Positions 7,396 through 42,988 of a stretch of 64,000 bases of DNA are shown piece by piece. The translations under genes were made by a program, and so were the position numbers. Numbering within the stretch: the first letter of the stretch is position 1; each line of letters begins with the position of its first letter. The notes under the pieces were generated by a model, which saw only the letters and a program-made list of their open reading frames with translations, was not told the DNA's origin and did not search any database. Location: the NCBI RefSeq assembly GCF_007483665.1, contig NZ_VIQO01000013.1, positions 62,001 to 126,000 of the forward strand. Direction: 5' to 3'. Origin of the DNA: Catellatospora sichuanensis (GTDB taxonomy: Bacteria > Actinomycetota > Actinomycetes > Mycobacteriales > Micromonosporaceae).

Positions 7396-8391
7396 TCACG
7401 CCCATTCGTGTCGGGCGGCGTGCCAACCCAGCTGCATGCGGGTCTCCACACCGGCCAGGTCCATCAGGTGGCGCAGCCGGCGCTGCAGGGTGCGCAGCGA
7501 CAGGTCGAGCTGCGTCGCGACCGCCTGGTCGGTGAGGCCGGACAGCAGCAGGGACAGGATACGGCGGTCGAGCTCGGTGGGTCCGTCGATGTCCAGCTCG
7601 ACGTACGGTAGCCCGCCCGATCCGAAACCGGACAGTTCCAGCGGATAGGCACGCTGCCATACCGTCTCGAACAGCGCCTCCAGCGCGGCCAGCAGACCGC
7701 TGCGGTGCAGCAGCACCGCGCCCGGTTCGCCGCCGGTGGGGAGCACTAGCGGGGCGGTGACCGGCACCAGGGCCAGGTCGGCGTCGGCGAGGATCAGTTT
7801 CATCGGCAGCCGGTCGGCCACCCGCAGTTCCACGCCACGCTGCAGCGAGTCGACGACCTCGTTGAGGATGCCCGGCTCGGCCAGCACCGAACGCTCCAGG
7901 ACCACCCGGAACCGCACCCCGCGCGCGGCCGCGGCGTCCTCCTGCGCGTTCGAGCCGGGCGGCACGGCGATGTAGGGCGAGGTCACGAAGTTGCGGATCT
8001 CGTGGCGGGCGGCCTGCTGCACCTGCTGGAACCGGTGCCGGATGGCGTCCACGCCGGAGACCACCTCGATCAGCTCGCTGATGCTGCGTCCGGCGACCGC
8101 CGCCCGGTGCTCCTCGGCGAGGCTGATCAGCGCCTGCTCGGCGATGCGCAGCCCGTCGCGGCGCTCGGTGATCAGCGCGCCCAGCGCCATCGCGGGCGGC
8201 GCGGCCGCGAACGCCTCACCGCCGGAACGGATGGCCAGGCCGCACTCCACCAGGCGGGACAGGACCTTCTCCACCTCGGCCTCGGGGCGGTCCAGCAGAT
8301 CGGCCAGCAGCATGGCGGTGGCACTGGGCCGACCGAGCAGCGCGCGGTAGACGAACTCCTCGTCGGGTTCGAGTCCCAGCGCACCGAGCAT
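7396..8391 (-). CDS. TrmB-like / LuxR-type two-ended HTH regulator
   Basis: 331-residue regulator with a DNA-binding domain at each end. The N-terminus (MLGALGLEPDEEFVYRALLG then LADLLDRPEAEVEKVLSRLV) is a TrmB/MarR-like winged helix. The middle (about 80-260) resembles the phospholipase-D-like effector part of TrmB proteins. The C-terminal ~65 residues are a LuxR/GerE helix-turn-helix (ELDRRILSLLLSGLTDQAVA, then LDLSLRTLQRRLRHLMDLAG). This architecture recurs in the regulator at 34035. The start at 8391 follows AGG 6 nt upstream; ATG 8411 is an alternative. It is read with the lipoprotein gene 1 bp downstream and lies just beyond the terminator-like hairpin 3' side of the subtilase gene. The signal it senses is unknown. 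Confidence 0.78.
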   Translation of the reverse strand: MLGALGLEPDEEFVYRALLGRPSATAMLLADLLDRPEAEVEKVLSRLVECGLAIRSGGEAFAAAPPAMALGALITERRDGLRIAEQALISLAEEHRAAVAGRSISELIEVVSGVDAIRHRFQQVQQAARHEIRNFVTSPYIAVPPGSNAQEDAAAARGVRFRVVLERSVLAEPGILNEVVDSLQRGVELRVADRLPMKLILADADLALVPVTAPLVLPTGGEPGAVLLHRSGLLAALEALFETVWQRAYPLELSGFGSGGLPYVELDIDGPTELDRRILSLLLSGLTDQAVATQLDLSLRTLQRRLRHLMDLAGVETRMQLGWHAARHEWA

Positions 8392-8487
8392 CGGCGACCT
8401 GCCCCTCTCCATCAGCAGCGGCGGGGAGAGTATGCGCCATACCGGCAGATCTTGAATAGCCCCTGTTGGCGAGCCAGGTGACGGGAA

Positions 8488-31040: not shown

Positions 31041-32993
31041 GTGAGCGAGACCCTCGAAAACCTGCTGCACGAGTCGCGCCGGTTCCCCCCGCCGGCGGAG
31101 ATCGCCGCGCACGCGAACGTCACCGCCGAGGCTTACGCGCAGGCCGACGCCGACCGGTTGGCGTTCTGGGAGACCCAGGCCAAGCGGCTGGACTGGGCCC
31201 GGCCGTGGGACGAGGTACTGGACTGGTCCAACCCGCCGTTCGCGAAGTGGTTCGTCGGCGGTCAGCTCAACATCGCGTACAACTGCCTGGACCGGCACCT
31301 GGCCAACGGGCTGGGCGACCGGGTCGCCATCCACTGGGAGGGCGAGCCGGGCGACACCCGCACCATCACGTACGCCGACCTGCACGCCGAGGTGTGCCAG
31401 GCGGCCAACGCGCTGACCGGTCTCGGCGTGCACGCCGGTGACCGGGTCGCGATCTACATGCCGATGATTCCCGAGGCCGCCGTCGCGATGCTGGCCTGCG
31501 CCCGCATCGGCGCGACCCACTCGGTGGTGTTCGGCGGCTTCAGCAAGGACGCGCTGGGCGGCCGGATCCAGGACGCCAGCGCCAAGGTCGTCATCACCGC
31601 GGACGGCGGCTACCGCCGCGGCGCGCCGAGCGCGCTCAAGCCGACCGTCGACGAGTCCGTGGCCGAGTGCCCGACCGTCGAGAAGGTCCTGGTGGTCCGC
31701 CGGACCGGCCAGGAGGTCGCCTGGGACGACGAGCGCGACGTCTGGTGGCACGACGTGGTCGGCAACGCCAGCCCCGAACACGAGGCGCAGCCGTTCGACG
31801 CCGAGCACCCGCTGTTCATCCTCTACACCTCGGGCACCACCGCGAAGCCGAAGGGCATCCTGCACACCACCGGCGGATACCTGACCCAGACCTCGTACAC
31901 CCACCACGCGGTGTTCGATCTCAAGCCGGAGACCGACGTCTACTGGTGCACCGCCGACATCGGCTGGGTGACCGGGCACAGCTACATCGTGTACGGCCCG
32001 CTCTCCAACGGCGCCACCCAGGTCATGTACGAGGGCACCCCGGACACCCCGCACCGCGGCCGGTTCTGGGAGATCGTGGAGAAGTACCGCGTCACGATCC
32101 TCTACACCGCGCCCACCGCGATCCGCACGTTCGCCAAGTGGGGCGACGACATCCCGGCCCAGTTCGACCTCAGCTCGCTGCGACTGCTCGGCTCGGTCGG
32201 CGAGCCGATCAACCCCGAGGCCTGGATGTGGTACCGCGAGCACATCGGCGGCAACCGCTGCCCGGTCGTGGACACCTGGTGGCAGACCGAGACCGGGGCC
32301 ATCATGATCTCCCCGCTGCCCGGCGTGACCGACTGCAAGCCGGGCTCGGCGATGGGCCCGCTGCCGGGCATCAAGGCCGAGGTAGTCGCGGACGACGGCT
32401 CGATCGTGGGCAACGGCGGCGGCGGTTACCTGGCGCTGACCGGTCCGTGGCCGTCGATGCTGCGCACCATCTGGGGCGACGACAAGCGTTTCCTGGAGAC
32501 GTACTGGTCGCGCTTCGCCGAGCAGGGCTTCTATTTCGCCGGTGACGGCGCGAAGCGTGACGAGGACGGGGCGATCTGGCTGCTCGGCCGGGTCGACGAC
32601 GTGATGCTGGTGTCCGGCCACAACATCTCCACCACCGAGGTCGAGTCGGCGCTGGTCGCCCACCCGGCAGTGGCAGAGGCTGCGGTCGTCGGCGCCACCG
32701 ACCCGACCACCGGTCAGGCCATCGTCGCCTTCGTGATCCTCAAGGGCGGGGCCGAGGTCGGTGTGCCGGAGCTGCGTGACCACGTCGCCAAGACGCTGGG
32801 CCCGATCTGCAAGCCGCGCCAGATCATGCTGGTGACCGAGCTGCCGAAGACCCGCTCCGGAAAGATCATGCGGCGGCTGCTGCGCGACGTGGCGGAGAAC
32901 CGGTCGCTCGGTGACGTCACGACCCTGCAGGACTCCGCGGTGATGAACCTGATCTCCGCGGGTATGCAGTCGAGCAAGTCGGACGAGGACTGA
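31041..32993 (+). CDS. acs: Acetyl-CoA synthetase (AMP-forming)
   Basis: Activates acetate to acetyl-CoA through acetyl-AMP. The 650-residue length is normal. Signature segments are all present: the P-loop-like [46 protein letters not shown], and the hinge and catalytic C-terminal [15 protein letters not shown]. The Lys in SGK is the residue acetylated by Pat-type enzymes in other bacteria. GTG 31041 has GGGAGG about 9 nt upstream. The promoter region between it and the Fic-like gene holds TAACAT near 31000. Transcription ends at a 20-bp hairpin (33006-33046) that is also the left border of the duplicated regulator module. Confidence 0.97.
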
Positions 32994-33005
32994 CCCGAAC
33001 CGAGC

Positions 33006-33046
33006 GAAGGGGCGGCCACCGGTGTGACACCGGTGGCCGCCCCTTC
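33006..33046 (+). terminator. Strong hairpin after acs (first copy of the module border)
   Basis: Two perfect 20-nt arms (33006-33025 and 33027-33046) fold around a single G, beginning 13 nt after the acs stop. A diverged copy lies at 33669-33710. The 32994-33371 gap otherwise holds promoter sequence of the small HTH gene. Confidence 0.85.
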
Positions 33047-33250
33047 GTCATCGTCGGCACGCGGTCCCCCGTATCCGCCGGCTGACGCCCGCGGGCACGC
33101 ACGTACCTCGCGGCACCGGGACCTCGGCGGTTTTCGATCGGTGTCTGCACCGCCGAAACGCCGGGACCCGGAGCCCGACCTCCACCCGGAGGAACGTCGT
33201 GCTCTGAACATAAGCCGACGCGGGCCAGCGACCAAGATCACTGGGTACCG

Positions 33251-33266
33251 TTGCAGGATCCTGCAA
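33251..33266 (+). promoter_or_regulatory. Operator candidate TTGCA-N6-TGCAA (copy 1)
   Basis: TTGCA (33251-33255), GGATCC, TGCAA (33262-33266): here a perfect 16-bp palindrome. The same TTGCA-N6-TGCAA stands before the paralogous regulator at 33917-33932. Both are followed about 40 bp later by a shared GTCTAGnTTGCTCT block that may hold the -10 element. Confidence 0.6.
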
Positions 33267-33371
33267 TCTGCACAACAGGCCTGGCCCGTGCCGGTAGCAC
33301 TGTCTAGGTTGCTCTAGTCCGGCCGGGCGGACCCCGCACCGGCATGATTCGACGGGGGGCCTATATCACCC

Positions 33372-33608
33372 ATGCAGCTCACCCCACGTGAGAGCACCAT
33401 TGTCGCGCTGCTGGCCGCAGGCCACACCGACGCCGCGATCGCGGCGAAACTCGACATCAGCGTGCGCACCATCGCCTACACCCTGTCCGCCCTCATGGAG
33501 CGGTTCGAGGTGTCCAACCGATTCCAGCTGGGGCTGCGCCTCGGAGCCGAAGCGGCGCAGCAGACACCCGTCGAGAGACCGGCCGAAGAGGAGCCCGACG
33601 ACACGTGA
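33372..33608 (+). CDS. Truncated LuxR-type HTH protein (remnant of a duplicated regulator)
   Basis: 78-residue protein consisting of a GerE/LuxR helix-turn-helix and a short acidic tail (LTPRESTIVALLAAGHTDAA then LDISVRTIAYTLSALMERF). It is about 75% identical by eye to the last 78 residues of the regulator at 34035. It lacks the N-terminal winged helix and middle domain. Its promoter region is also paralogous to that of the full-length gene. So it looks like a duplicate whose first ~270 codons were deleted, leaving a new ATG in front of the HTH. It might still bind the shared operator and compete with the full protein (inference), or be inert. Confidence 0.65.
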   Translation: MQLTPRESTIVALLAAGHTDAAIAAKLDISVRTIAYTLSALMERFEVSNRFQLGLRLGAEAAQQTPVERPAEEEPDDT

Positions 33609-33668
33609 CGACGCGGGCGATGATCACGCGACGTGCCCGTCCGCGACGAGGCCGATCGTCACCTGTGC

Positions 33669-33710
33669 GAAGGGGCGGCTACCGGCGTCACACCGGTAGC
33701 CGCCCCTTTC
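33669..33710 (+). terminator. Hairpin at the left border of the second module copy
   Basis: GAAGGGGCGGCTACCGG pairs with CCGGTAGCCGCCCCTTTC apart from the end bases, with a loop CGTCACA. It is a diverged copy of the hairpin at 33006-33046 and would terminate the small HTH gene. The 33609-34034 gap otherwise contains the paralogous promoter. Confidence 0.75.
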
Positions 33711-33916
33711 GTCGCCGCCGGCACGTGGTCCCCCGTACTACGTCGGGCGATGCCCGCCGTGCACGCACGTGCTTCGCGACACCGAGACCCGCGGCCGTCG
33801 TGGTGTACACACCGCCGATGCGCCGGGACCCGTGGCTCGCGACCCGCCCTGGATGGGGAGGTCATGCCGATGAACATAGGGCGGGCCGGACCCACCTCCA
33901 AGATCACTAGTCGCGA

Positions 33917-33932
33917 TTGCACAAACATGCAA
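33917..33932 (+). promoter_or_regulatory. Operator candidate TTGCA-N6-TGCAA (copy 2)
   Basis: TTGCA (33917-33921), CAAACA, TGCAA (33928-33932), extended to ATTGCA/TGCAAT. The spacer differs from copy 1 while the arms are kept, which supports binding-site conservation. It lies about 100 bp before the regulator start. Confidence 0.6.
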
Positions 33933-34034
33933 TCCGTCGGACGGGCTCTGGTCGGCATTGATTCGCCTGTCTAGATTGCTCTTGTCCGGCGCGGTACGAG
34001 CCTGCATCGGAGAGGTTTCACGGGGGAGGCCTTC

Positions 34035-35090
34035 ATGCTCGACGCACCTGTCGTGCCCTCACTGACGAGGTGGGGCGTGTCGCCACACGCCGACCTGGTC
34101 TACCGCACCCTCATCACCTTCGGGCCCTGGTCGGTGGAGCACATCAGCCGTTCCCTGGAGATGAAGTCGCGGCTGGTGCGCACTGCCCTGGACGAACTCA
34201 CCGCGCTCGGAGCGGCCGTCCCGGCCCGCCGGGCGCTCGTCGAGGGGACCGGCGACGACCGCATCTGGTCCACCCGCGCCCCCGCGCAGGTGGTGGCCCT
34301 GCTCCGCGACCGGCACCACCACACCGCGCTGGCCAGGCACCGGCTGCGCCAGCGGCTCACCCGGATGACGTATCCCGACATCGTCACCGACCTCGGCCGA
34401 CTGCCCGTCGACGACGCCCGGCCACTCGACGGCCTGTCCAAGACGATCGAGCGGCTCCTGGAACTGGCGGCGGCGGAACGCCACGAACACATGAGCATGA
34501 ACCCGGAGCCGGCTTTCAGCGCCGCCGCCTTGAAGACGGCTGCGCCCGCGGAGCGCAAGATGCTCGCCCGCGGCATCTCGTTCCTCAGCCTGGGCGTGCC
34601 CGCGTCGACCGACGACGAGTCGGAGGTGCACGACACCGAACTCCGCTTCCACGGCATGCAGTATCGGGAGCTGCCGCAGGTGCCGGGCAAGATGATCATC
34701 TTTGATCGCGCCACGGCGCTCGTGCCGCAGGATCCCTCCGACCGTACGCGCGGCATGTGGGAGATCAGCGCACCGCGGGTCGTCGCCGAGCTCACGGCGC
34801 TCTTCCTGCAGCAATGGGCCCAGGCGAAGGACCCCGGCCGCGATTGGACACCGCCCGCGCACCTGACCCCCCGGGAGAGCACCATCGTGGTGCTGCTGGC
34901 CAGGGGCTACACCGACGCCGCGCTCGCGGCGAAGCTCGACATCAGCGTACGCACCATCGCCTACACCCTCTCCGCGCTGATGGACAGATACGACGTGATC
35001 AACCGGTTCCAGCTCGGACTACGGCTGGGCGCAGAGGCAGCGCAGCACGCGCCCGTCGACGAGACCACGCACGAACCCGAAGGGGAGTGA
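34035..35090 (+). CDS. TrmB-like / LuxR-type HTH regulator (full-length module copy)
   Basis: 351-residue regulator. The N-terminal ~80 residues are a TrmB/MarR-like winged helix (SPHADLVYRTLITFGPWSVE then MKSRLVRTALDELTALGAAV). The middle is an unrecognised effector domain. The C-terminal 70 residues are a LuxR/GerE HTH (LTPRESTIVVLLARGYTDAA, LDISVRTIAYTLSALMDRY). The architecture matches the regulator at 7396-8391. ATG 34035 follows GGGGGAGG. It is 3 bp upstream of the secreted-protein gene at 35094, so the two form an operon, and its promoter carries the TTGCA-N6-TGCAA dyad. It probably controls its own operon and the paralogous copies (inference); the inducing signal is unknown. Confidence 0.82.
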   Translation: MLDAPVVPSLTRWGVSPHADLVYRTLITFGPWSVEHISRSLEMKSRLVRTALDELTALGAAVPARRALVEGTGDDRIWSTRAPAQVVALLRDRHHHTALARHRLRQRLTRMTYPDIVTDLGRLPVDDARPLDGLSKTIERLLELAAAERHEHMSMNPEPAFSAAALKTAAPAERKMLARGISFLSLGVPASTDDESEVHDTELRFHGMQYRELPQVPGKMIIFDRATALVPQDPSDRTRGMWEISAPRVVAELTALFLQQWAQAKDPGRDWTPPAHLTPRESTIVVLLARGYTDAALAAKLDISVRTIAYTLSALMDRYDVINRFQLGLRLGAEAAQHAPVDETTHEPEGE

Positions 35091-35093
35091 CCC

Positions 35094-35654
35094 GTGCGCC
35101 GTACCCTCCGCGCCTTGGTCCTGACCGCTACCACGATGATCCTGGCCGCCACGGCGGTCGCCCCGGCTACGGCGGTGCCCGGAGGGCTCCGCTACTACAG
35201 GTGGCTCGACTGCCCCGCCGGCACGAGCAACGCCGCACGCATCGATTCGATGTGGACCGACGTCGACTACATGGGCCGCACCCTGGTGTCCTTCGTGGGC
35301 GAGGTGTTCCCCTGCGCATCGCCGACGCTGGACGAGGAAGTCTGGGCCCTGGCGGCGTACAGCAGCAACTCCGCCTCCGGCAAGGCCCATCCCTACCGGT
35401 TCGGGAACCTGTACAACGGCCATTACTACGGCACGAGGGGGATTGGGCCGGCCGTGCAGGCGGTGTGTGTCATCGCCGACGAGACGACCCGCCTCGCCTG
35501 CGTGTCCATCAGCTGGGTCGACACCGACGGGGTGCTGCTGCCCGTCGTCGAGGGCCCGCTGCCCGTCGACTCGCCGCGGGTGGCCGCACCCGCCGTCACG
35601 AACATGTCGGTGTATCCGGACCCCATCGGTCCGGGTTGCGGGCTCTGCCCCTGA
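35094..35654 (+). CDS. Small secreted cysteine-containing protein (module partner, copy 1)
   Basis: 186-residue exported protein of no family I know. The signal peptide is RRTLRALVLTATTMILAATA with cleavage near ATAVP. The mature part (~155 aa) has six cysteines spread as single residues (DCPAGTS, FPCASP, VCVIADE, LACVSISW) plus a C-terminal CGLC pair. The last residues DPIGPGCGLCP are nearly the same as in the paralog at 36026. Aromatic residues are frequent (YYRW, YNGHYYG). The GTG start at 35094 has GGGGAG upstream, overlapping the end of the regulator gene. It is probably disulfide-bonded and secreted by Sec. The role is unknown; the pairing with a dedicated regulator suggests a stress- or signal-induced extracellular protein. 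Confidence 0.75.
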   Translation: MRRTLRALVLTATTMILAATAVAPATAVPGGLRYYRWLDCPAGTSNAARIDSMWTDVDYMGRTLVSFVGEVFPCASPTLDEEVWALAAYSSNSASGKAHPYRFGNLYNGHYYGTRGIGPAVQAVCVIADETTRLACVSISWVDTDGVLLPVVEGPLPVDSPRVAAPAVTNMSVYPDPIGPGCGLCP

Positions 35655-35671
35655 CAACCACCTCCGACAGC

Positions 35672-35700
35672 GGCAGGCGGCCCGCAGCGGGCCGCCTGCC
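35672..35700 (+). terminator. Terminator-like hairpin after the first secreted-protein gene
   Basis: GGCAGGCGGCCCGC (35672-35685) and GCGGGCCGCCTGCC (35687-35700) are perfect 14-nt arms around one base, 17 nt past the stop. Confidence 0.75.
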
Positions 35701-35773
35701 CTGCCACCGCACGCACAGGTCGATACAGCACCGGCACGGACCCGAAAGCAACGTCTCGCGAGGAGCACCGGCA

Positions 35774-35898
35774 ATGAGAACAGTCATCCGCAGGCTGCCG
35801 GCGACCGTCGCCGCGGCGGCAGACGGCGCACCCTCGCCGCCGGCCAAGTACGTCCAGTACAAGTGGTTGTCCTGTCCGGCAGGAACTGCCCCTGATCC
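35774..35898 (+). pseudogene. Truncated secreted-protein gene (5' fragment, module copy 2)
   Basis: ATG 35774 has a good AGGAG 8 nt upstream and opens MRTVIRRLPATVAAAADGAP, then KYVQYKWLSCPAGTAP. The latter aligns with the mature starts of the two intact paralogs (RYYRWLDCPAGTS, VQLKWLICPEGTS). The hydrophobic signal core is missing and the homology stops at about 35890, where sequence from a regulator 3' end begins. The frame stays open through to 36601 in frame with the next gene, so a 275-residue chimeric protein could be made. Confidence 0.7.
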
Positions 35899-36019
35899 CT
35901 GTCCGCCCTCATGGACAGATACGTCATCAGCCGATATCAGCCAGGCCTGCGACCGGGCGCCGAGGCAGCGCGGCACGCGTCCGCCGACGAGACGGGCCGA
36001 CCCGAACCCGAGGGGATCC
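35899..36019 (+). pseudogene. Fragment of a LuxR-type HTH regulator 3' end
   Basis: Read from 35899, the DNA encodes LSALMDRYVISRYQPGLRPG then AEAARHASADETGRPEPEG. This matches the C-terminus of the regulator at 34035 (LSALMDRYDVINRFQLGLRL then GAEAAQHAPVDETTHEPEG) with a one-codon deletion. The helix-turn-helix itself is gone and there is no start signal. It lies directly before a secreted-protein start, the same order as in the intact copy. Confidence 0.75.
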
Positions 36020-36025
36020 ACAGTC

Positions 36026-36601
36026 ATGAACAGAATCATCCGCGCTGTGTCCGTTGCTGTCGCCGCGATGGCCTTGGCCACCGCGGGCACGATGGCACCC
36101 GCCGTGGCGACGCCGACCTCCTCGAAGACCGTCCAGCTCAAGTGGCTGATCTGCCCGGAAGGTACGAGCAACACCGGCTGGATCGACAGCTCTCGGACGT
36201 ACCAGCCCGAGGGGGGCACCCATTATCGAATCGAGCTCGGCGGCACGATCGTGACCTGCTCGCAGCCGTACGCGCCTTGGTATGTCTTCGGGCTTGGGAC
36301 GTACACCAGCACCGACGCCATCGGTAGGGCCGTGCCGTTCAGCGCGGACGCTCCGCGGACCTACGACTTCCTCAGCAGCTTCCCGATCCGCACGGACGTC
36401 CAGGCGGTGTGTCTGCTGGCCAACGAGACGACCCGCCTGGACTGCCTGTCCATCGGCTGGGTCACCGAGAACGGCAGCACGCACCCGGTGATCGAGGGTG
36501 CGCTTCCCGTCGACTCGCCTCGCGTCGCCATGCCCGCCGTCACCGATCTGACACGCCCCGGCGACAACCCGGTCGGGCCCGGCTGTGGGCTCTGTCTCTG
36601 A
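36026..36601 (+). CDS. Small secreted cysteine-containing protein (module partner, copy 2)
   Basis: 191-residue paralog of the protein at 35094. The signal peptide MNRIIRAVSVAVAAMALATA ends near APAVATP. The mature part keeps the cysteine pattern (ICPEGTS, TCSQPYAP, VCLLANE, LDCLSIGW, CGLC) and the C-terminal block DNPVGPGCGLCL. Shared segments such as ETTRLxCxSIxWV and LPVDSPRVAxPAVT show clear common origin. ATG 36026 has GAGGGG upstream. An in-frame upstream start at 35774 would add 84 residues of chimeric sequence; the internal start with a proper signal peptide is more likely the functional one. A terminator hairpin follows. Function unknown. Confidence 0.75.
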   Translation: MNRIIRAVSVAVAAMALATAGTMAPAVATPTSSKTVQLKWLICPEGTSNTGWIDSSRTYQPEGGTHYRIELGGTIVTCSQPYAPWYVFGLGTYTSTDAIGRAVPFSADAPRTYDFLSSFPIRTDVQAVCLLANETTRLDCLSIGWVTENGSTHPVIEGALPVDSPRVAMPAVTDLTRPGDNPVGPGCGLCL

Positions 36602-36617
36602 CCCCTCCCGAGTCCTG

Positions 36618-36659
36618 ACGCCGAGAGGCGGTCCGCGAATGCGGGCCGCCTCTCGGCGT
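36618..36659 (+). terminator. Terminator-like hairpin after the second secreted-protein gene
   Basis: Perfect 14-bp stem ACGCCGAGAGGCGG (36618-36631) and CCGCCTCTCGGCGT (36646-36659), 14-nt loop, 16 nt past the stop. Confidence 0.8.
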
Positions 36660-36838
36660 TCCAGACGCCCGGTGCCGTGACCCCGCGCAGGAGCAGACTG
36701 TGGATCGGAAGATCGCATCCACCGATCAGCGGATGTGATCCGTCGGCGGATGACATTTGCCTGTCACCCCGTTGCCACACTCCGGCACGACGCCCTCCGA
36801 TATCCGGGCCATGCCTCGCGGTGCCTTCATTTGCCATT

Positions 36839-36919: not shown

Positions 36920-36990
36920 TCCCCTCCAACTGTTCCTCCGGCCGCGGCGCCCACTGCCCGTGGCGGAGACCCCCGAGGAATGGAGTGACC

Positions 36991-39765
36991 ATGAGGCACG
37001 CCATCCAAACGCGGAGAAGGCGGCGGCTACTCGCCGCGGTTCCCGCGTTGGCGCTGGCCGCTGTCGGGCTGTACGGCCCGGGAACGGCCAATGCCGTTGC
37101 CGCACCTGCCGTGATCAGCCCCAGCGAGTTCTACATCAACTACGCCGAGCCCGCCGTCCAGCCGGACACCACGGGCAAGGAGACCAAGGGCGCCAACGGC
37201 ATCTACGGCGGCGCGGGTGACAAGACCCGCGCGTTCGACCGTAAGCACGCCAACGGCAACCCGCTCACCGCACGTCAGCTCGCCAAGCTCGAAGCGAAGT
37301 CCATCAAGACCGGCAAGAACCCGCGCAACCTCAAGCAGGCGCCGACCACCCAGGTCGCGAAGCTGCTGACGATGCTGGTCGAATACAGCACCACCGCGAA
37401 CGACGACTTCACCGACGTCGTGGTCACGAACACGACCGACGCGGACCGGTCCTGCGGCTACGGCAACATCCAGAACGGGCCCACGCACAACACCATCCCG
37501 AACCCGGCGACGATGGCCCACGAGGACAACAACTCGATGTGGGTCGCCGACTTCGACCAGGACCACTACAACAAGATGCTCTACACCTCCACGGGCATCA
37601 CCGAGCGGGTCCGCCCCGACCTCACCGGTCCGGACGGCAAGGCGGGCATCGACCTCACCGGTCTGACGATGCGCAACATGTACCTGGAGATGTCGAAGGG
37701 CGCGTACACCGTCGAGGGTCAGGCGACCCCGTGGATCACGCTGCCGCACTCCGAGGCGTGGTACGGCGCGACGACCTGCTACCTGGAGAACGGCGTCTAC
37801 AAGATGCCGGCCATCCAGTCGATGAACGGCCACCCGGACAACAAGCTGGGTGCGCAGCAGATGGCCATGGACGCGGTGGACGCGCTGGCCGCGGCCCAGC
37901 CGAACTTCCCCTGGGCCGACTACGACATCGAGGACCAGGGCGACCGGGACGGCGACGGCAACTTCTACGAGCCGGACGGCGTCATCGACCACCTCGTCAT
38001 GGTGCACGCCGGTGAGGACAAGTCCGGCGGCGGCGGCGCGCAGGGGGCCTACGCCATCTGGGCGCACTCCTCCGCGGTCGCGGGCGGCTACTCGATCCCC
38101 GGCACGAATCTGAAGATCTCGAACTACATCGTGCAGCCCGAGGACTCGGGCGTGGGCGTGTTCGCCCACGAGTACGGCCACGACCTCGGTCTGCCGGACC
38201 TGTACGACACCTCGGGCGCCGGCGAGTCGGACATCGACTTCTGGGACCTCATGTCCTCGGGTTCGCACTCCGGCCCGATCTTCCAGGCGATGCCGACGCA
38301 CATGGGCATCTGGGACAAGTGGGTGCTCGGCTGGGCCGACCCGCTGACCCTCGCGCCCGGCGCCTCGGACCGCGACGTGCAGCTGGGCCAGACCTCGCGC
38401 ACGCCGAAGGGCACCAAGGACGGCATCAAGATCGACCTGCCGCCGAAGACCGTCACGCTGGCGACCGCACACAGTGGTGCCAACATGTGGTACACCGGCA
38501 CGGATCAGGACTGGGCCGACATCAAGATCGCACGTGAGGTCGCCGTTCCGGCCGCGGCCGACGCGAAGTTCTGGATGTGGAACAACTACGTCATCGAGGC
38601 GGACTGGGACTTCGGTTTCGTCGAGGTCTCGACCGACGGCGGCAGCACCTGGACCGACCTCAAGATCTACGATGAGGCCGGCAACCTGGTGTCCACGGAC
38701 GACGGTTACGCCGACCCCAACGGCAACATGGCGACGTTCCAGAACCGCTACGGCCTGACCGGCGACAGCCACGGCTGGCGTCACGACTACGTCGACCTGT
38801 CCGCGTACGCCGGCAGCACGGTGCAGGTCCGCCTGCGCCAGGCCACCGACGCCGCCGCACAGGAGCGCGGCTGGTTCGCCGACGACTTCTCGGTCACCGG
38901 CGGCGGCGCCACCACCTGGAGCGACGACGTCGAGGGCGGCACCGCCGGCTGGACCGCCTCCGGCGGCACCTGGGCCGACACCACCGGCCCCGGCTGGCGC
39001 ATCGACACCGGCACCTCGGTGAAGGCGCACTACTACCTGGCCGAGTGGCGCAACTTCGACGGGTTCGACAACGGCCTGAAGTACGCCTACGACAGCACCT
39101 ACCTGCGTGACGGCGCATGGAAGGTCGAGAAGATCAAGTACAACGCGCCCGGCATGCTGTTGTGGTACCGCGACACCACGTTCGGTAGCACCAACCACGT
39201 CACGGCGAACCTGACGGCGCTGCCGAGCGTGGGCGCCAAGGGCGGCCTGCTGCTGGTGGACTCGCACTTCGACCCGTTCCGCCGCACCGGCGTCGCGGCC
39301 ACGAAGGACACGTCCACGCTGAAGAACCTGCAGGGCCGGCCGCAGTCGTCGAACGCGGCGTTCACGCTGAACCCGACGTACCCGTTCAACGAGTGCCTGG
39401 AGGTGCCCGCCGAGCCGTTCGTCGAGTACTGCACCTCCTTCGGGCCGCAGCCGGGTGTGGCGGCGTTCACCGACGCCAAGGGCTGGGTGCCGGGTCTGGA
39501 ACTGCGGGGCAGCAGCCTGTTCTACCGGGACGCCGACGCCTCCGTCGTCATCCCGTCGAAGGGCAACGCGCCGTACACCACCCGGGTCGTCAACCCCGAC
39601 GGCACGCCCGCGACCGATGCCTACGGCCTCGACCTCGGGTTCACCATCCTCGGCACGGGCAACCCCGGCGACCAGGACGCCTCCTACGGCGTCACGATCA
39701 CCATCGTCCGGGCCGCGAAGGACAATTCGTACGCCACCGTGCACGTCACGCCCGCGAACGGCTGA
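36991..39765 (+). CDS. Secreted M6-family zinc metalloprotease (immune inhibitor A type), copy 1
   Basis: 924-residue exported protease. The signal peptide is arginine-rich (RRRRRLLAAVPALALAAVGL) with cleavage near NAVAAP. A propeptide-like region follows (ISPSEFYINYAEPAVQPDTT). The peptidase M6 domain starts about residue 110 and holds the zinc motif FAHEYGHDLGLPDLYD (His393, Glu394, His397; third ligand in GLPD) and a downstream Met-turn-like FWDLMSSG. An acidic DYDIEDQGDRDGDGNFYEPD segment probably binds calcium. The C-terminal ~350 residues are beta-rich. The frame also has GTG 6 nt earlier, but GGAG spacing favours ATG 36991. It is a tandem paralog of the next gene. Confidence 0.93.
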   Translation: MRHAIQTRRRRRLLAAVPALALAAVGLYGPGTANAVAAPAVISPSEFYINYAEPAVQPDTTGKETKGANGIYGGAGDKTRAFDRKHANGNPLTARQLAKLEAKSIKTGKNPRNLKQAPTTQVAKLLTMLVEYSTTANDDFTDVVVTNTTDADRSCGYGNIQNGPTHNTIPNPATMAHEDNNSMWVADFDQDHYNKMLYTSTGITERVRPDLTGPDGKAGIDLTGLTMRNMYLEMSKGAYTVEGQATPWITLPHSEAWYGATTCYLENGVYKMPAIQSMNGHPDNKLGAQQMAMDAVDALAAAQPNFPWADYDIEDQGDRDGDGNFYEPDGVIDHLVMVHAGEDKSGGGGAQGAYAIWAHSSAVAGGYSIPGTNLKISNYIVQPEDSGVGVFAHEYGHDLGLPDLYDTSGAGESDIDFWDLMSSGSHSGPIFQAMPTHMGIWDKWVLGWADPLTLAPGASDRDVQLGQTSRTPKGTKDGIKIDLPPKTVTLATAHSGANMWYTGTDQDWADIKIAREVAVPAAADAKFWMWNNYVIEADWDFGFVEVSTDGGSTWTDLKIYDEAGNLVSTDDGYADPNGNMATFQNRYGLTGDSHGWRHDYVDLSAYAGSTVQVRLRQATDAAAQERGWFADDFSVTGGGATTWSDDVEGGTAGWTASGGTWADTTGPGWRIDTGTSVKAHYYLAEWRNFDGFDNGLKYAYDSTYLRDGAWKVEKIKYNAPGMLLWYRDTTFGSTNHVTANLTALPSVGAKGGLLLVDSHFDPFRRTGVAATKDTSTLKNLQGRPQSSNAAFTLNPTYPFNECLEVPAEPFVEYCTSFGPQPGVAAFTDAKGWVPGLELRGSSLFYRDADASVVIPSKGNAPYTTRVVNPDGTPATDAYGLDLGFTILGTGNPGDQDASYGVTITIVRAAKDNSYATVHVTPANG
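39021..39389 (+). repeat. 369-bp exact direct repeat, copy in metalloprotease 1
   Basis: Identical base for base to 42244-42612. After one mismatch the identity continues for 51 bp (39391-39441). The flanks are clearly diverged, which points to gene conversion between the two genes. Confidence 0.88.
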
Positions 39766-40138: not shown

Positions 40139-40207
40139 GCCCCCGTTCTCCACCTGTTACCGCCACGGCCCCCTGTCATGGCGGACACCCCGAGGAATGG
40201 AGTGACC

Positions 40208-42988
40208 ATGAAGCACGCCATCCATGCGCAGCGGAGACGGCGGCTACTAGCCGCCGTCCCTGCGCTGGCTTTGGCCGCTGTCGGGCTGTACGCACCCACC
40301 GCGGCCACCGCCGCGAGCCCGACGGCCACGATCAGCCCCAGCGAGTTCTACATCAACTACGCCGAGCCCACGATCCAGCCGGACACCACGGGCAAGGAGA
40401 CCAAGGGCGCGGGCGGCGTCTACGGCGCGAAGGCCGACAAGACCCGTGCCTTCGACAAGAAGCACGCCGCCGGCAACCCGCTCACCTCGCACCAGCTCGC
40501 CAGGCTCGAAGCGAAGTCCATCAGGGAGCGCAAGAGCCCCCGCAAGATCAAGCAGGCGCCGACCACCCAGGTCGCCAAACTGCTGACGATGCTGGTCGAG
40601 TACAACCCGAACGCGAACGACGACTTCACCGGCACCATGGTCACGTCGTCGACCGAGGCGAACCGGACCTGCGTGCCGGGCACGATCCAGAACGGTCCGC
40701 TGCACAACGGCATCCCGAACCCGGCGACGATGTCCCACCTGGACAACAACTCCATGTGGGTCGCCGACTTCAACCAGGACCACTACAACAAGATGCTCTA
40801 CACCTCCACGGGCATCACGAAGCGGGTCCGCACCGACCTCAAGGGTCCGGACGGCAAAAAGGGCATCGACCTCACCGGTCTGACGATGCGCAACATGTAC
40901 CTGGAGATGTCGAAGGGTGCCTACACCGTCGCCGGTGAGGCGACGCCGTGGATCACCCTGCCGCACTCGGAGGGCTGGTACGCCGCGACGACCTGCTACC
41001 AGGGCGAGAGCGGCGAATGGCTGATGCCGGCCATCCAGTCGATGAACGGCCACCCGAACAACCCCGGGGGCCCGCAGAAGATGGCGACGGACGCGGTGGA
41101 CGCGCTCGCCGCGGCCCAGCCGAACTTCCCCTGGGCCGACTACGACATCGAGGACCAGGGCGACCGGGACGGCGACGGCAACTTCTACGAGCCGGACGGC
41201 GTCATCGACCACCTGGTGCTGGTGCACGCCGGTGAGGACAAGTCCGGCGGCGGCGGCGCACAGGGCACGTACGCCATCTGGGCGCACTCCTCGGCCGTGC
41301 CCAGTGGCTACACCATCCCCGGCACCAACCTGAAGATCTCGAACTACATCGTGCAGCCCGAGGACTCGGGCGTGGGCGTGTTCGCCCACGAGTACGGCCA
41401 CGACCTCGGCCTGCCGGACCTGTACGACACCTCGGGCGCCGGCGAGTCCGGCATCGACTTCTGGGACCTCATGTCCTCGGGCTCGCACTCCGGCCCGATC
41501 TTCCAGGCGATGCCGACGCACATGGGCATCTGGGACAAGTGGGTTCTCGGCTGGGCCGACCCGAAGGTGCTCGCCCCGGGTTCCGGCCTCACGAGCGTGA
41601 AGCTGGGCCAGACCTCCCGCACGCCGGTCGGTACCGAGGACGGCATCAAGATCGACCTGCCGCCGAAGACCATCACGCTGGCCAACCCGCACAGCGGCGC
41701 CAACATGCGGTACACGGGCGCGGACCAGGACTGGGCCGACATCAAGCTCACGCGTGAGGTCGCCGTGCCCAACGCGGCCGACGCCAAGTTCTGGATGTGG
41801 AACAACTACGTCATCGAGGCGGACTGGGACTACGGCTTCGTCGAGGTCTCGACCAACGGCGGCAGCACCTGGACCAACCTCAAGATCTACGACGAGGCCG
41901 GCAACCTGGTGTCCACGGACGACGGTTACGCCGACCCCAACGGCAACATGAACACGGCATTCAAGCTGAAGTACGGCCTGACCGGCGACAGCCACGGCTG
42001 GCGTCACGACTACGTCGACCTGTCCGGGTACGCCGGCAGCACGGTGCAGGTCCGCCTGCGCCTGGCCACCGACGCCGCCTTCCAGGAGCGCGGCTGGTTC
42101 GTCGACGACCTCTCGGTCACCGGCGGCGGCGCCACCACCTGGAGCGACGACGCTGAGAGCGGTGCCAACGGCTGGACCGCGACTGGCGGCACCTGGACGG
42201 ACACCACCGGCCCCGGCTGGCGCATCGACACCGGCACCTCTTCGAAGGCGCACTACTACCTGGCCGAGTGGCGCAACTTCGACGGGTTCGACAACGGCCT
42301 GAAGTACGCCTACGACAGCACCTACCTGCGTGACGGCGCATGGAAGGTCGAGAAGATCAAGTACAACGCGCCCGGCATGCTGTTGTGGTACCGCGACACC
42401 ACGTTCGGTAGCACCAACCACGTCACGGCGAACCTGACGGCGCTGCCGAGCGTGGGCGCCAAGGGCGGCCTGCTGCTGGTGGACTCGCACTTCGACCCGT
42501 TCCGCCGCACCGGCGTCGCGGCCACGAAGGACACGTCCACGCTGAAGAACCTGCAGGGCCGGCCGCAGTCGTCGAACGCGGCGTTCACGCTGAACCCGAC
42601 GTACCCGTTCAAGGAGTGCCTGGAGGTGCCCGCCGAGCCGTTCGTCGAGTACTGCACCTCCTTCAAGGCGCAGAAGGGCGTCGGTGCCTTCACCGACGCC
42701 AAGGGCTGGGTGCCGGGCCTGGAGCTGCGCGGCGAAAGCCTGTTCCACCGGGACGCCGACGCCAGCGTCGTCATCCCGTCGAAGGGCAACGCGCCGTACA
42801 CCACCCGGATCGTCAACCCCGACGGCACGCCCGCGACCGACGTCTACGGCACCGACCTCGGGTTCACCGTCCTCGGCACCGGTAACCCCGGTGACGCGGC
42901 AGTCGCCAACGGCGTCAAGCTGACCCTCCTGTGGGCGCCGCACGACAACGCGTACGCCTACGTGCTGGTCACGCCGGCGAACGGCTGA
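40208..42988 (+). CDS. Secreted M6-family zinc metalloprotease (immune inhibitor A type), copy 2
   Basis: 926-residue close paralog of the gene at 36991. Signal peptide RRRRLLAAVPALALAAVGLY, zinc motif FAHEYGHDLGLPDLYD with the first His at residue 394, and the same Asp-rich DRDGDGNFYEPD segment. The mature proteins differ at scattered positions, mainly in the N-terminal half and near residues 470-500. By contrast a 369-bp stretch (42244-42612) is identical in DNA to 39021-39389. ATG 40208 has GGAG 6 nt upstream; the frame's earlier start at 40007 would run through the leader dyad and is rejected. Both proteases carry similar leaders, so they are probably co-regulated but separately transcribed. 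Confidence 0.93.
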   Translation: MKHAIHAQRRRRLLAAVPALALAAVGLYAPTAATAASPTATISPSEFYINYAEPTIQPDTTGKETKGAGGVYGAKADKTRAFDKKHAAGNPLTSHQLARLEAKSIRERKSPRKIKQAPTTQVAKLLTMLVEYNPNANDDFTGTMVTSSTEANRTCVPGTIQNGPLHNGIPNPATMSHLDNNSMWVADFNQDHYNKMLYTSTGITKRVRTDLKGPDGKKGIDLTGLTMRNMYLEMSKGAYTVAGEATPWITLPHSEGWYAATTCYQGESGEWLMPAIQSMNGHPNNPGGPQKMATDAVDALAAAQPNFPWADYDIEDQGDRDGDGNFYEPDGVIDHLVLVHAGEDKSGGGGAQGTYAIWAHSSAVPSGYTIPGTNLKISNYIVQPEDSGVGVFAHEYGHDLGLPDLYDTSGAGESGIDFWDLMSSGSHSGPIFQAMPTHMGIWDKWVLGWADPKVLAPGSGLTSVKLGQTSRTPVGTEDGIKIDLPPKTITLANPHSGANMRYTGADQDWADIKLTREVAVPNAADAKFWMWNNYVIEADWDYGFVEVSTNGGSTWTNLKIYDEAGNLVSTDDGYADPNGNMNTAFKLKYGLTGDSHGWRHDYVDLSGYAGSTVQVRLRLATDAAFQERGWFVDDLSVTGGGATTWSDDAESGANGWTATGGTWTDTTGPGWRIDTGTSSKAHYYLAEWRNFDGFDNGLKYAYDSTYLRDGAWKVEKIKYNAPGMLLWYRDTTFGSTNHVTANLTALPSVGAKGGLLLVDSHFDPFRRTGVAATKDTSTLKNLQGRPQSSNAAFTLNPTYPFKECLEVPAEPFVEYCTSFKAQKGVGAFTDAKGWVPGLELRGESLFHRDADASVVIPSKGNAPYTTRIVNPDGTPATDVYGTDLGFTVLGTGNPGDAAVANGVKLTLLWAPHDNAYAYVLVTPANG
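42244..42612 (+). repeat. 369-bp exact direct repeat, copy in metalloprotease 2
   Basis: Partner of 39021-39389. The encoded segment begins KAHYYLAEWRNFDGFDNGLK and ends near NPTYPFK in this copy. Confidence 0.88.

Follow-up and report, generated by a model that had tools for sequence, protein, structure and literature searches.

The 64,000 nucleotides analysed here come from Catellatospora sichuanensis (assembly GCF_007483665.1, contig NZ_VIQO01000013.1, positions 62,001 to 126,000 of the forward strand; below, the window) and form part of a genome of 9.45 Mb. Near their centre a gene for a 351-aa regulator (REG, 34035–35090, plus strand) is followed by a gene for a 186-aa, predicted exported six-cysteine protein (SEC1, 35094–35654, plus strand), and related sequences lie on both sides: a 78-aa mini-regulator consisting of a LuxR/GerE-type helix-turn-helix (HTH) only (33372–33608, plus strand), and a second predicted exported six-cysteine protein of 191 aa (SEC2, 36026–36601, plus strand). 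The question raised by this locus is whether regulator and exported protein belong together or merely happen to be neighbours in a region of duplicated DNA. A preliminary description had taken them for a regulator-effector pair that is being amplified and pruned by recombination, and had not mentioned a palindromic operator. Our results indicate that the genes probably constitute an autoregulated export cassette, in which REG would bind this palindrome and control the REG-SEC operon as well as operator-bearing SEC genes elsewhere.

Linkage of REG and SEC

The SEC1 gene begins 3 bp past the stop codon of REG, as the preliminary description had it. Outside the genus, SEC loci were located by SEC profiles alone and opened in two rounds; the set used for counting comprises 83 clusters with a SEC match at E ≤ 1e-8, and excludes L222 and L223 (weaker), L224 and L225 (no match at this cut) and G114:C83 (weak). 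A full REG adjoins SEC on the same strand in 71 of these 83 clusters, so the proposed pair is real well beyond the window. An HTH-only stretch is present in 11 of the 83, one of which (L126) is a broken full regulator. SEC genes without a linked regulator, which had been expected to speak against a pair, do occur in 12 of the 83, yet nine of these 12 carry the operator described below upstream; L209, also among the 12, has a full regulator about 0.9 kb away on the opposite strand with an operator of its own. Within the genus a full regulator is found in 11 of 15 SEC clusters. The regulator usually comes first, and the SEC-first order is seen as well, for example in L111 and L174. No other gene accompanies the pair with similar regularity: among 4590 open reading frames (ORFs) of 40–450 aa near 93 loci of both rounds, compared at a cut of 1e-6, none has relatives in more than four genera. 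A narrower comparison, restricted to ORFs of 130 aa or longer around the first-round loci and to a cut of 1e-20, pointed the same way in the 71 rows listed. By eye, the most widespread neighbour families look like common ATP-binding cassette (ABC) and Streptomyces antibiotic regulatory protein (SARP)-type genes.

A first SEC profile matched 36 of 354 Micromonosporaceae genomes and a wider one 66 of the 354, spread over 18 of 44 genera; its weakest matches are doubtful. Among 394 genomes of the class, with eight candidates scored per genome among the matches listed, SEC was found only in the window's own genome apart from two weak matches, a search in which distant members may be missed. Within Catellatospora, 10 of 11 genomes contain SEC, and regulators with E < 1e-100 occur in the same 10. 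The eleventh (G007) has a 38% identical regulator with an operator and no SEC detected beside it, and one weak SEC-like match elsewhere (E 5.5e-4). In a reverse search of 61 genomes, 35 regulators matched at E 1e-60 or better, and 23 of them adjoin SEC. Among the titles listed in literature searches, none names this regulator-SEC pair.

A palindromic operator upstream of the cassette

Across the family the cassette leaders share a 16-bp palindrome, TTGC-N8-GCAA, the inner eight bases of which are roughly symmetric (R-N-R-A-T-Y-N-Y). The window has one copy 5' of the HTH-only gene (operator 1, TTGCAGGATCCTGCAA, 33251–33266) and another 5' of REG (operator 2, TTGCACAAACATGCAA, 33917–33932), the latter centred about 60 bp 5' of the predicted start of the REG-SEC1 transcript. 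Both are of the form TTGCA-N6-TGCAA, and they are the only two such sites in the 64 kb, where 0.03 would be expected. The same form lies about 98–138 bp 5' of the regulator in all 10 cassette-bearing Catellatospora genomes. Among 76 cassettes that begin with REG or an HTH-only gene, the 250 bp or less preceding the first gene hold the exact operator in 47 and a version with one mismatch in 23, compared with 1 and 112, respectively, of 3000 control stretches taken from the same loci. Exact sites number 65 in 191,881 bp of cassettes and 7 in the surrounding 780,908 bp. Seven stand-alone SEC genes, and two with only an HTH gene ahead of them, have an exact operator 51–180 bp before the first gene.

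In 14 of 16 aligned Catellatospora leaders, TANNTT, a plausible −10 element, lies some 38–40 bp past the operator. In the window, the leader alignment points to TAGGTT (33305–33310, plus strand), 38 bp past operator 1, as the predicted −10 element of the HTH-only gene, and to TAGATT (33972–33977, plus strand), 39 bp past operator 2, as that of REG.

A wider regulon within Catellatospora was considered and rejected. TTGCA-N6-TGCAA occurs 34 times in the 11 genomes, with 20 sites at the cassette (one just behind a SEC gene), and the 14 off-cassette sites come close to the 12 occurrences of a reversed-pattern control. Thirteen of these 14 sites (G001:C11 left out) showed no REG and only weak SEC matches (L233, E 8e-4 and 0.04; L234, E 0.04). 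The same form of site precedes two related large exported proteins in the window's genome (L226, 6952, and L228, 3462; G000:C22 and C29), which may represent a second target or chance carried along by duplication, and it also precedes related exported proteins in two further genomes (L230, 3172, in G005; L234, 3170, in G010).

Domain structure of REG and its match to the operator

The preliminary assignment of REG to a type with a TrmB-like body and a LuxR-type HTH holds. The GerE HTH of the window REG scores 28.7 bits against a Pfam cut-off of 23.5, and GerE (PF00196) is matched by all of 36 regulators compared. The window REG by itself has no match to PF01978 at E 1; the label stands because the profile of the 36 regulators aligns over its positions 19–260 with residues 23–262 of TrmBL2 (E 3.3e-4), and because PF01978 is matched by 19 of the 36. 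Receiver, acyl-homoserine lactone (AHL)-binding and tetratricopeptide repeat (TPR) domains are absent among the 24 Pfam families that the 36 regulators match at 0.01. A defence role, raised by PADLOC matches to CARF/CasR/Csa3, was set aside; the match of the window REG falls in its LuxR-type HTH.

For 43 regulators with an exact upstream site the HTH was compared with that site. At the position of Ala 309, in the recognition helix of the window REG, all 24 regulators with a TTGCA site have Ala, and the 19 with TTGCG all have Thr, Val or Ser; of the 60 columns scanned, this one fits best. When a regulator tree is built without the HTH, the residue and operator base 5 each switch four times on it, and the two are in agreement in 43 of 43 cases, whereas shuffled labels need at least nine changes. 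The covariation of this residue with base 5 is strong evidence that REG itself reads the operator.

The SEC family

SEC1 and SEC2, identical at 73 of 168 positions, both have a hydrophobic N-terminus with an AxA motif, and 41 of 44 aligned family members likewise begin with a hydrophobic stretch that includes an AxA-like site. The cysteine pattern that had been noted for the two proteins was upheld in part: six cysteines are in register between SEC1 and SEC2 and are invariant in 44 of 44 members, whereas the C-terminal PGCGLC block is local, and only its CxxC is family-wide. In all 44 the CxxC is at most six residues away from where the given sequence stops, many of these sequences having been trimmed at the CxxC end before this count. 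As a family motif PGCGLC was dropped; it has five matches in the genome, three of them elsewhere, and these three are put down to chance because no SEC match was obtained around them.

The exported partner was suspected to lack a described family, and this is what the searches returned. SEC1 and SEC2 have no Pfam match and a single NCBIfam match, at E 0.12, ascribed to chance; among the 44 members, no Pfam family has matches at 0.1 to more than a single protein and no NCBIfam family has any at 0.01, while the lowest E-value obtained in the PDB is 0.22. The family evolves fast. In orthologous pairs the ratio of non-synonymous to synonymous substitution rates (dN/dS) is 0.35–0.70 for SEC (five pairs), compared with 0.16–0.28 for REG (three pairs) and 0.06–0.10 for the synthetase gene that borders the cassette (two pairs). 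Since dN/dS is high and copy number varies, SEC may be in contact with a changing partner outside the cell.

The HTH-only gene

The HTH-only protein is identical to the C-terminal part of REG at 56 of 72 positions, and the leaders of the two genes (33001–33371 and 33665–34034) share 258 of 361 aligned positions (71.5%), so the reported repeat of about 70% is genuine; matches per alignment length are 0.679 here and at most 0.488 in random pairs of window stretches of the same length. Both proteins in the window are of the TTGCA/Ala type. The suggestion that the gene is a pruned copy of REG, in contrast, found no support. It occurs in six of the 10 cassette-bearing Catellatospora genomes, has in the window an operator and putative promoter of its own, and recurs beside the cassette in other genera. 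Purifying selection and this recurrence together argue that it is probably not debris, and we read its product as a signal-blind competitor or a constitutive partner of REG.

That it is instead the decaying C-terminal fragment of a duplicated regulator seems unlikely to us. Weak pieces of regulator in another frame do lie just upstream of the HTH-only gene in G003 and G005, and in a small HTH tree of modest support the HTH-only genes fall into several groups near the regulators of their own lineages. Each of the larger groups holds several species, though, and the frame is open with a candidate start in 16 of 16 genes examined. Over 60 codons, dN/dS is 0.11–0.26 in 15 of 15 pairs. For distant pairs such low values could partly predate truncation; the two closest pairs give 0.107 (window and G004) and 0.151.

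The remaining claims of amplification and pruning fared unevenly. Local amplification is seen elsewhere in the genus, with two REG-SEC units in G010 and two SEC genes behind a single REG in G004 and G005, and the degenerate regulator 3' end that had been placed before SEC2 is there (35897–36015, plus strand; 76% identity over 122 bp). It adjoins a remnant of a SEC N-terminus (35780–35890, plus strand; E 6.6e-5, profile positions 7–46), and this deletion scar at 35.78–36.02 kb, in which the start of a SEC lies beside the end of a regulator, is the only clear loss. Since the HTH-REG-SEC block is common to several species, it is not a recent event of the window genome.

Proposed mechanism and alternatives

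The mechanism that we favour is drawn from these sequence comparisons. REG would act as a one-component regulator, its TrmB-like body serving as sensor and its LuxR-type HTH as DNA reader. As the operator is symmetric, a REG dimer would be expected to bind TTGC-RNRATYNY-GCAA some 60 bp ahead of where its own transcript is predicted to begin, and the position of the operator, with its centre near −60, together with the lack of a recognisable −35 element favours activation from there. The HTH-only protein shares the DNA-reading helix of REG and for this reason would be expected to bind the same operators; it would do so without answering the signal, damping or setting the switch. SEC would leave the cell by means of its signal peptide, probably be held together by disulfides, and act outside on a varying partner.

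Several observations weigh against this mechanism. Activation is argued from the position of the operator alone, and the leaders of G008 and G009 lack the shared −10 element. Cassettes that begin with SEC or consist of SEC only have the exact operator in just 8 of 21 cases and a one-mismatch version in five. Neither a full regulator nor an exact operator is present in L121, L126 (which has regulator fragments) and L217 outside the genus, nor within it in L045, the second SEC of L149, and L137, a C-terminal SEC fragment. Twelve of the 35 strong REG matches have no adjoining SEC in the SEC-profile list; among these 12, L252 has a divergent SEC and L250 a SEC fragment, and L243 and L249 have no SEC but do have an exact operator, no more than about 130 bp upstream. 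The covariation is perfect only in the promoter-distal half-site, the other half agreeing in 33 of 43 cases by eye, and four switches are few, one of them (L125) involving just one tip whose local support is weak.

The same operator and covariation would be expected if REG were a repressor that keeps REG-SEC expression low until its TrmB-like body meets a ligand, with the HTH-only protein as a ligand-blind co-repressor, and members of the TrmB family act both as repressors and as activators. We consider this possible but rather unlikely: the operator does not cover the −10 element but sits some 60 bp ahead of the predicted start, and a promoter scan found no sigma-70-type pair, a weak result given that 0.3 pairs were expected by chance; both fit an activator better. 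The least tenable reading of all, that an ordinary duplicated regulator happens to stand beside an unrelated secreted protein, has a negligible chance of being right in view of the 71 of 83 linked clusters, the shared operators and the residue-base covariation.

As to what SEC does, an antagonistic effector whose expression is gated by REG, either an antimicrobial or an inhibitor of another organism's enzyme, is a real possibility, if well short of probable. The fast evolution of SEC, the many copies in some genomes (eight matches in G323) and the patchy distribution over 66 of 354 genomes agree with such a role, against which stand the lack of an immunity-like gene common to the neighbourhoods and of any match to an inhibitor or toxin family, matches that by the preliminary description would have told against an undescribed system. 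A role of SEC as a protein signal that, either directly or after processing to a fragment, is sensed in turn within a self-recognition or density-sensing loop outside the cell is quite improbable. A dedicated autoregulation with little predicted regulon beyond itself, the rapid divergence of SEC and the regulator adjoining the exported product in most loci would suit a loop of this kind; no receptor or importer gene is common to the neighbourhoods, REG has no TPR or AHL-binding domain among its Pfam matches, and the six invariant cysteines among roughly 160 mature residues are what one expects of a folded protein and not of a peptide precursor. A fuller version, which we put forward as a long shot, is a new class of self-addressed control loop: REG, with its own operon as main predicted target, would drive a fast-evolving SEC, this SEC would come back from outside as a signal of self-recognition, and mini-regulators with several separate origins in the same family would compete for the operator and so fix the threshold.

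Comparison with known systems

As in the TrmB/TrmBL2 family (PDB 5box, 5bpd and 5bqt), a winged HTH in REG precedes a TrmB body; REG differs in being bacterial, in its additional LuxR-type HTH at the C-terminus, the domain that according to the covariation reads the operator, and in its exported partner. With LuxR/NarL-type regulators it has the GerE domain in common, but unlike these, AHL receptors and response regulators it shows no receiver or AHL-binding domain. The HTH-only protein resembles the stand-alone GerE (a chain of 74 aa, 1fse) in size and in its lone domain, and differs in having as partner a full regulator whose helix is of the same type. REG is also akin to a wider set of TrmB-like/LuxR regulators of Streptomyces, annotated as LuxR C-terminal-related or helix-turn-helix regulators, which are 28–32% identical over 90–94% of REG (15 of 80 plasmid records listed). 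Four of them, examined individually, match the REG profile at E 1e-52 or better, whereas their neighbourhoods contain neither a SEC match nor an exact operator. In RRNPP systems a regulator gene is likewise followed by the gene for an exported product; REG, however, lacks a TPR domain, and SEC is a conserved cysteine protein.

The cassette thus offers an exported protein family without prior description together with a handle on it, namely its regulator, its operator and a residue-to-base code, and this code makes the matching of regulators to operators testable from sequence across the Micromonosporaceae. The repeated HTH-only partners provide a natural test of how truncated regulators persist.

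Cassette layout and neighbouring features

The cassette is bounded on the left by a gene that we take from its family resemblance to encode an acyl/acetyl-CoA synthetase (31041–32993) and on the right by an M6 protease gene (36985–39765). Between them follow, in order, a hairpin, operator 1, the HTH-only gene, a hairpin, operator 2, REG, SEC1, a hairpin, the SEC/REG scar, SEC2 and a last hairpin, so that SEC2 is without an operator of its own and lies behind a hairpin. The four terminator-like hairpins, all on the plus strand, lie 3' of the synthetase gene at the left edge of the duplicated leader (33001–33053; z −8.91 relative to shuffled sequences), 3' of the HTH-only gene (33668–33711; z −5.29), 3' of SEC1 (35668–35703; z −4.29) and 3' of SEC2 (36615–36664; z −8.11). 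From their location we read them as transcript ends; a scan for consensus terminators did not list them because the T-run that it demands is absent.

Directly downstream of the cassette, two exported proteases of the M6 (immune inhibitor A-like) type lie in tandem (36985–39765 and 40202–42985) and are 85% identical, and homologs are found near the cassette in several Catellatospora genomes. They were considered as a part of the cassette and set aside, not being among the neighbour families common to other genera. A more distant TrmB-like/LuxR paralog, 28% identical, occupies 7414–8394 of the window on the minus strand. The third SEC copy of the genome, in L045 (G000:C16, 8641–9213), shares 78% identity with the second G004 SEC, and the DNA just upstream of it resembles by eye the end of an IS630-type transposase.

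Two regulators elsewhere have a different gene behind them. In L253 (G324:C1, near 267135), one of the 12 strong REG matches without an adjoining SEC, the place of SEC behind the regulator is taken by an exported protein that looks by eye ricin-B-lectin-like. In L140 (5834–6847; G010:C19) a 58% identical regulator without an exact operator or SEC precedes a gene that resembles by eye a thiamine-diphosphate decarboxylase, possibly reflecting a change of job. Finally, in G008 and G009 the regulator and the second SEC are separated by about 1.5 kb (L148, 9693–11170, and the same place in L149), and in G008 a separate operator lies 311 bp ahead of the second SEC.

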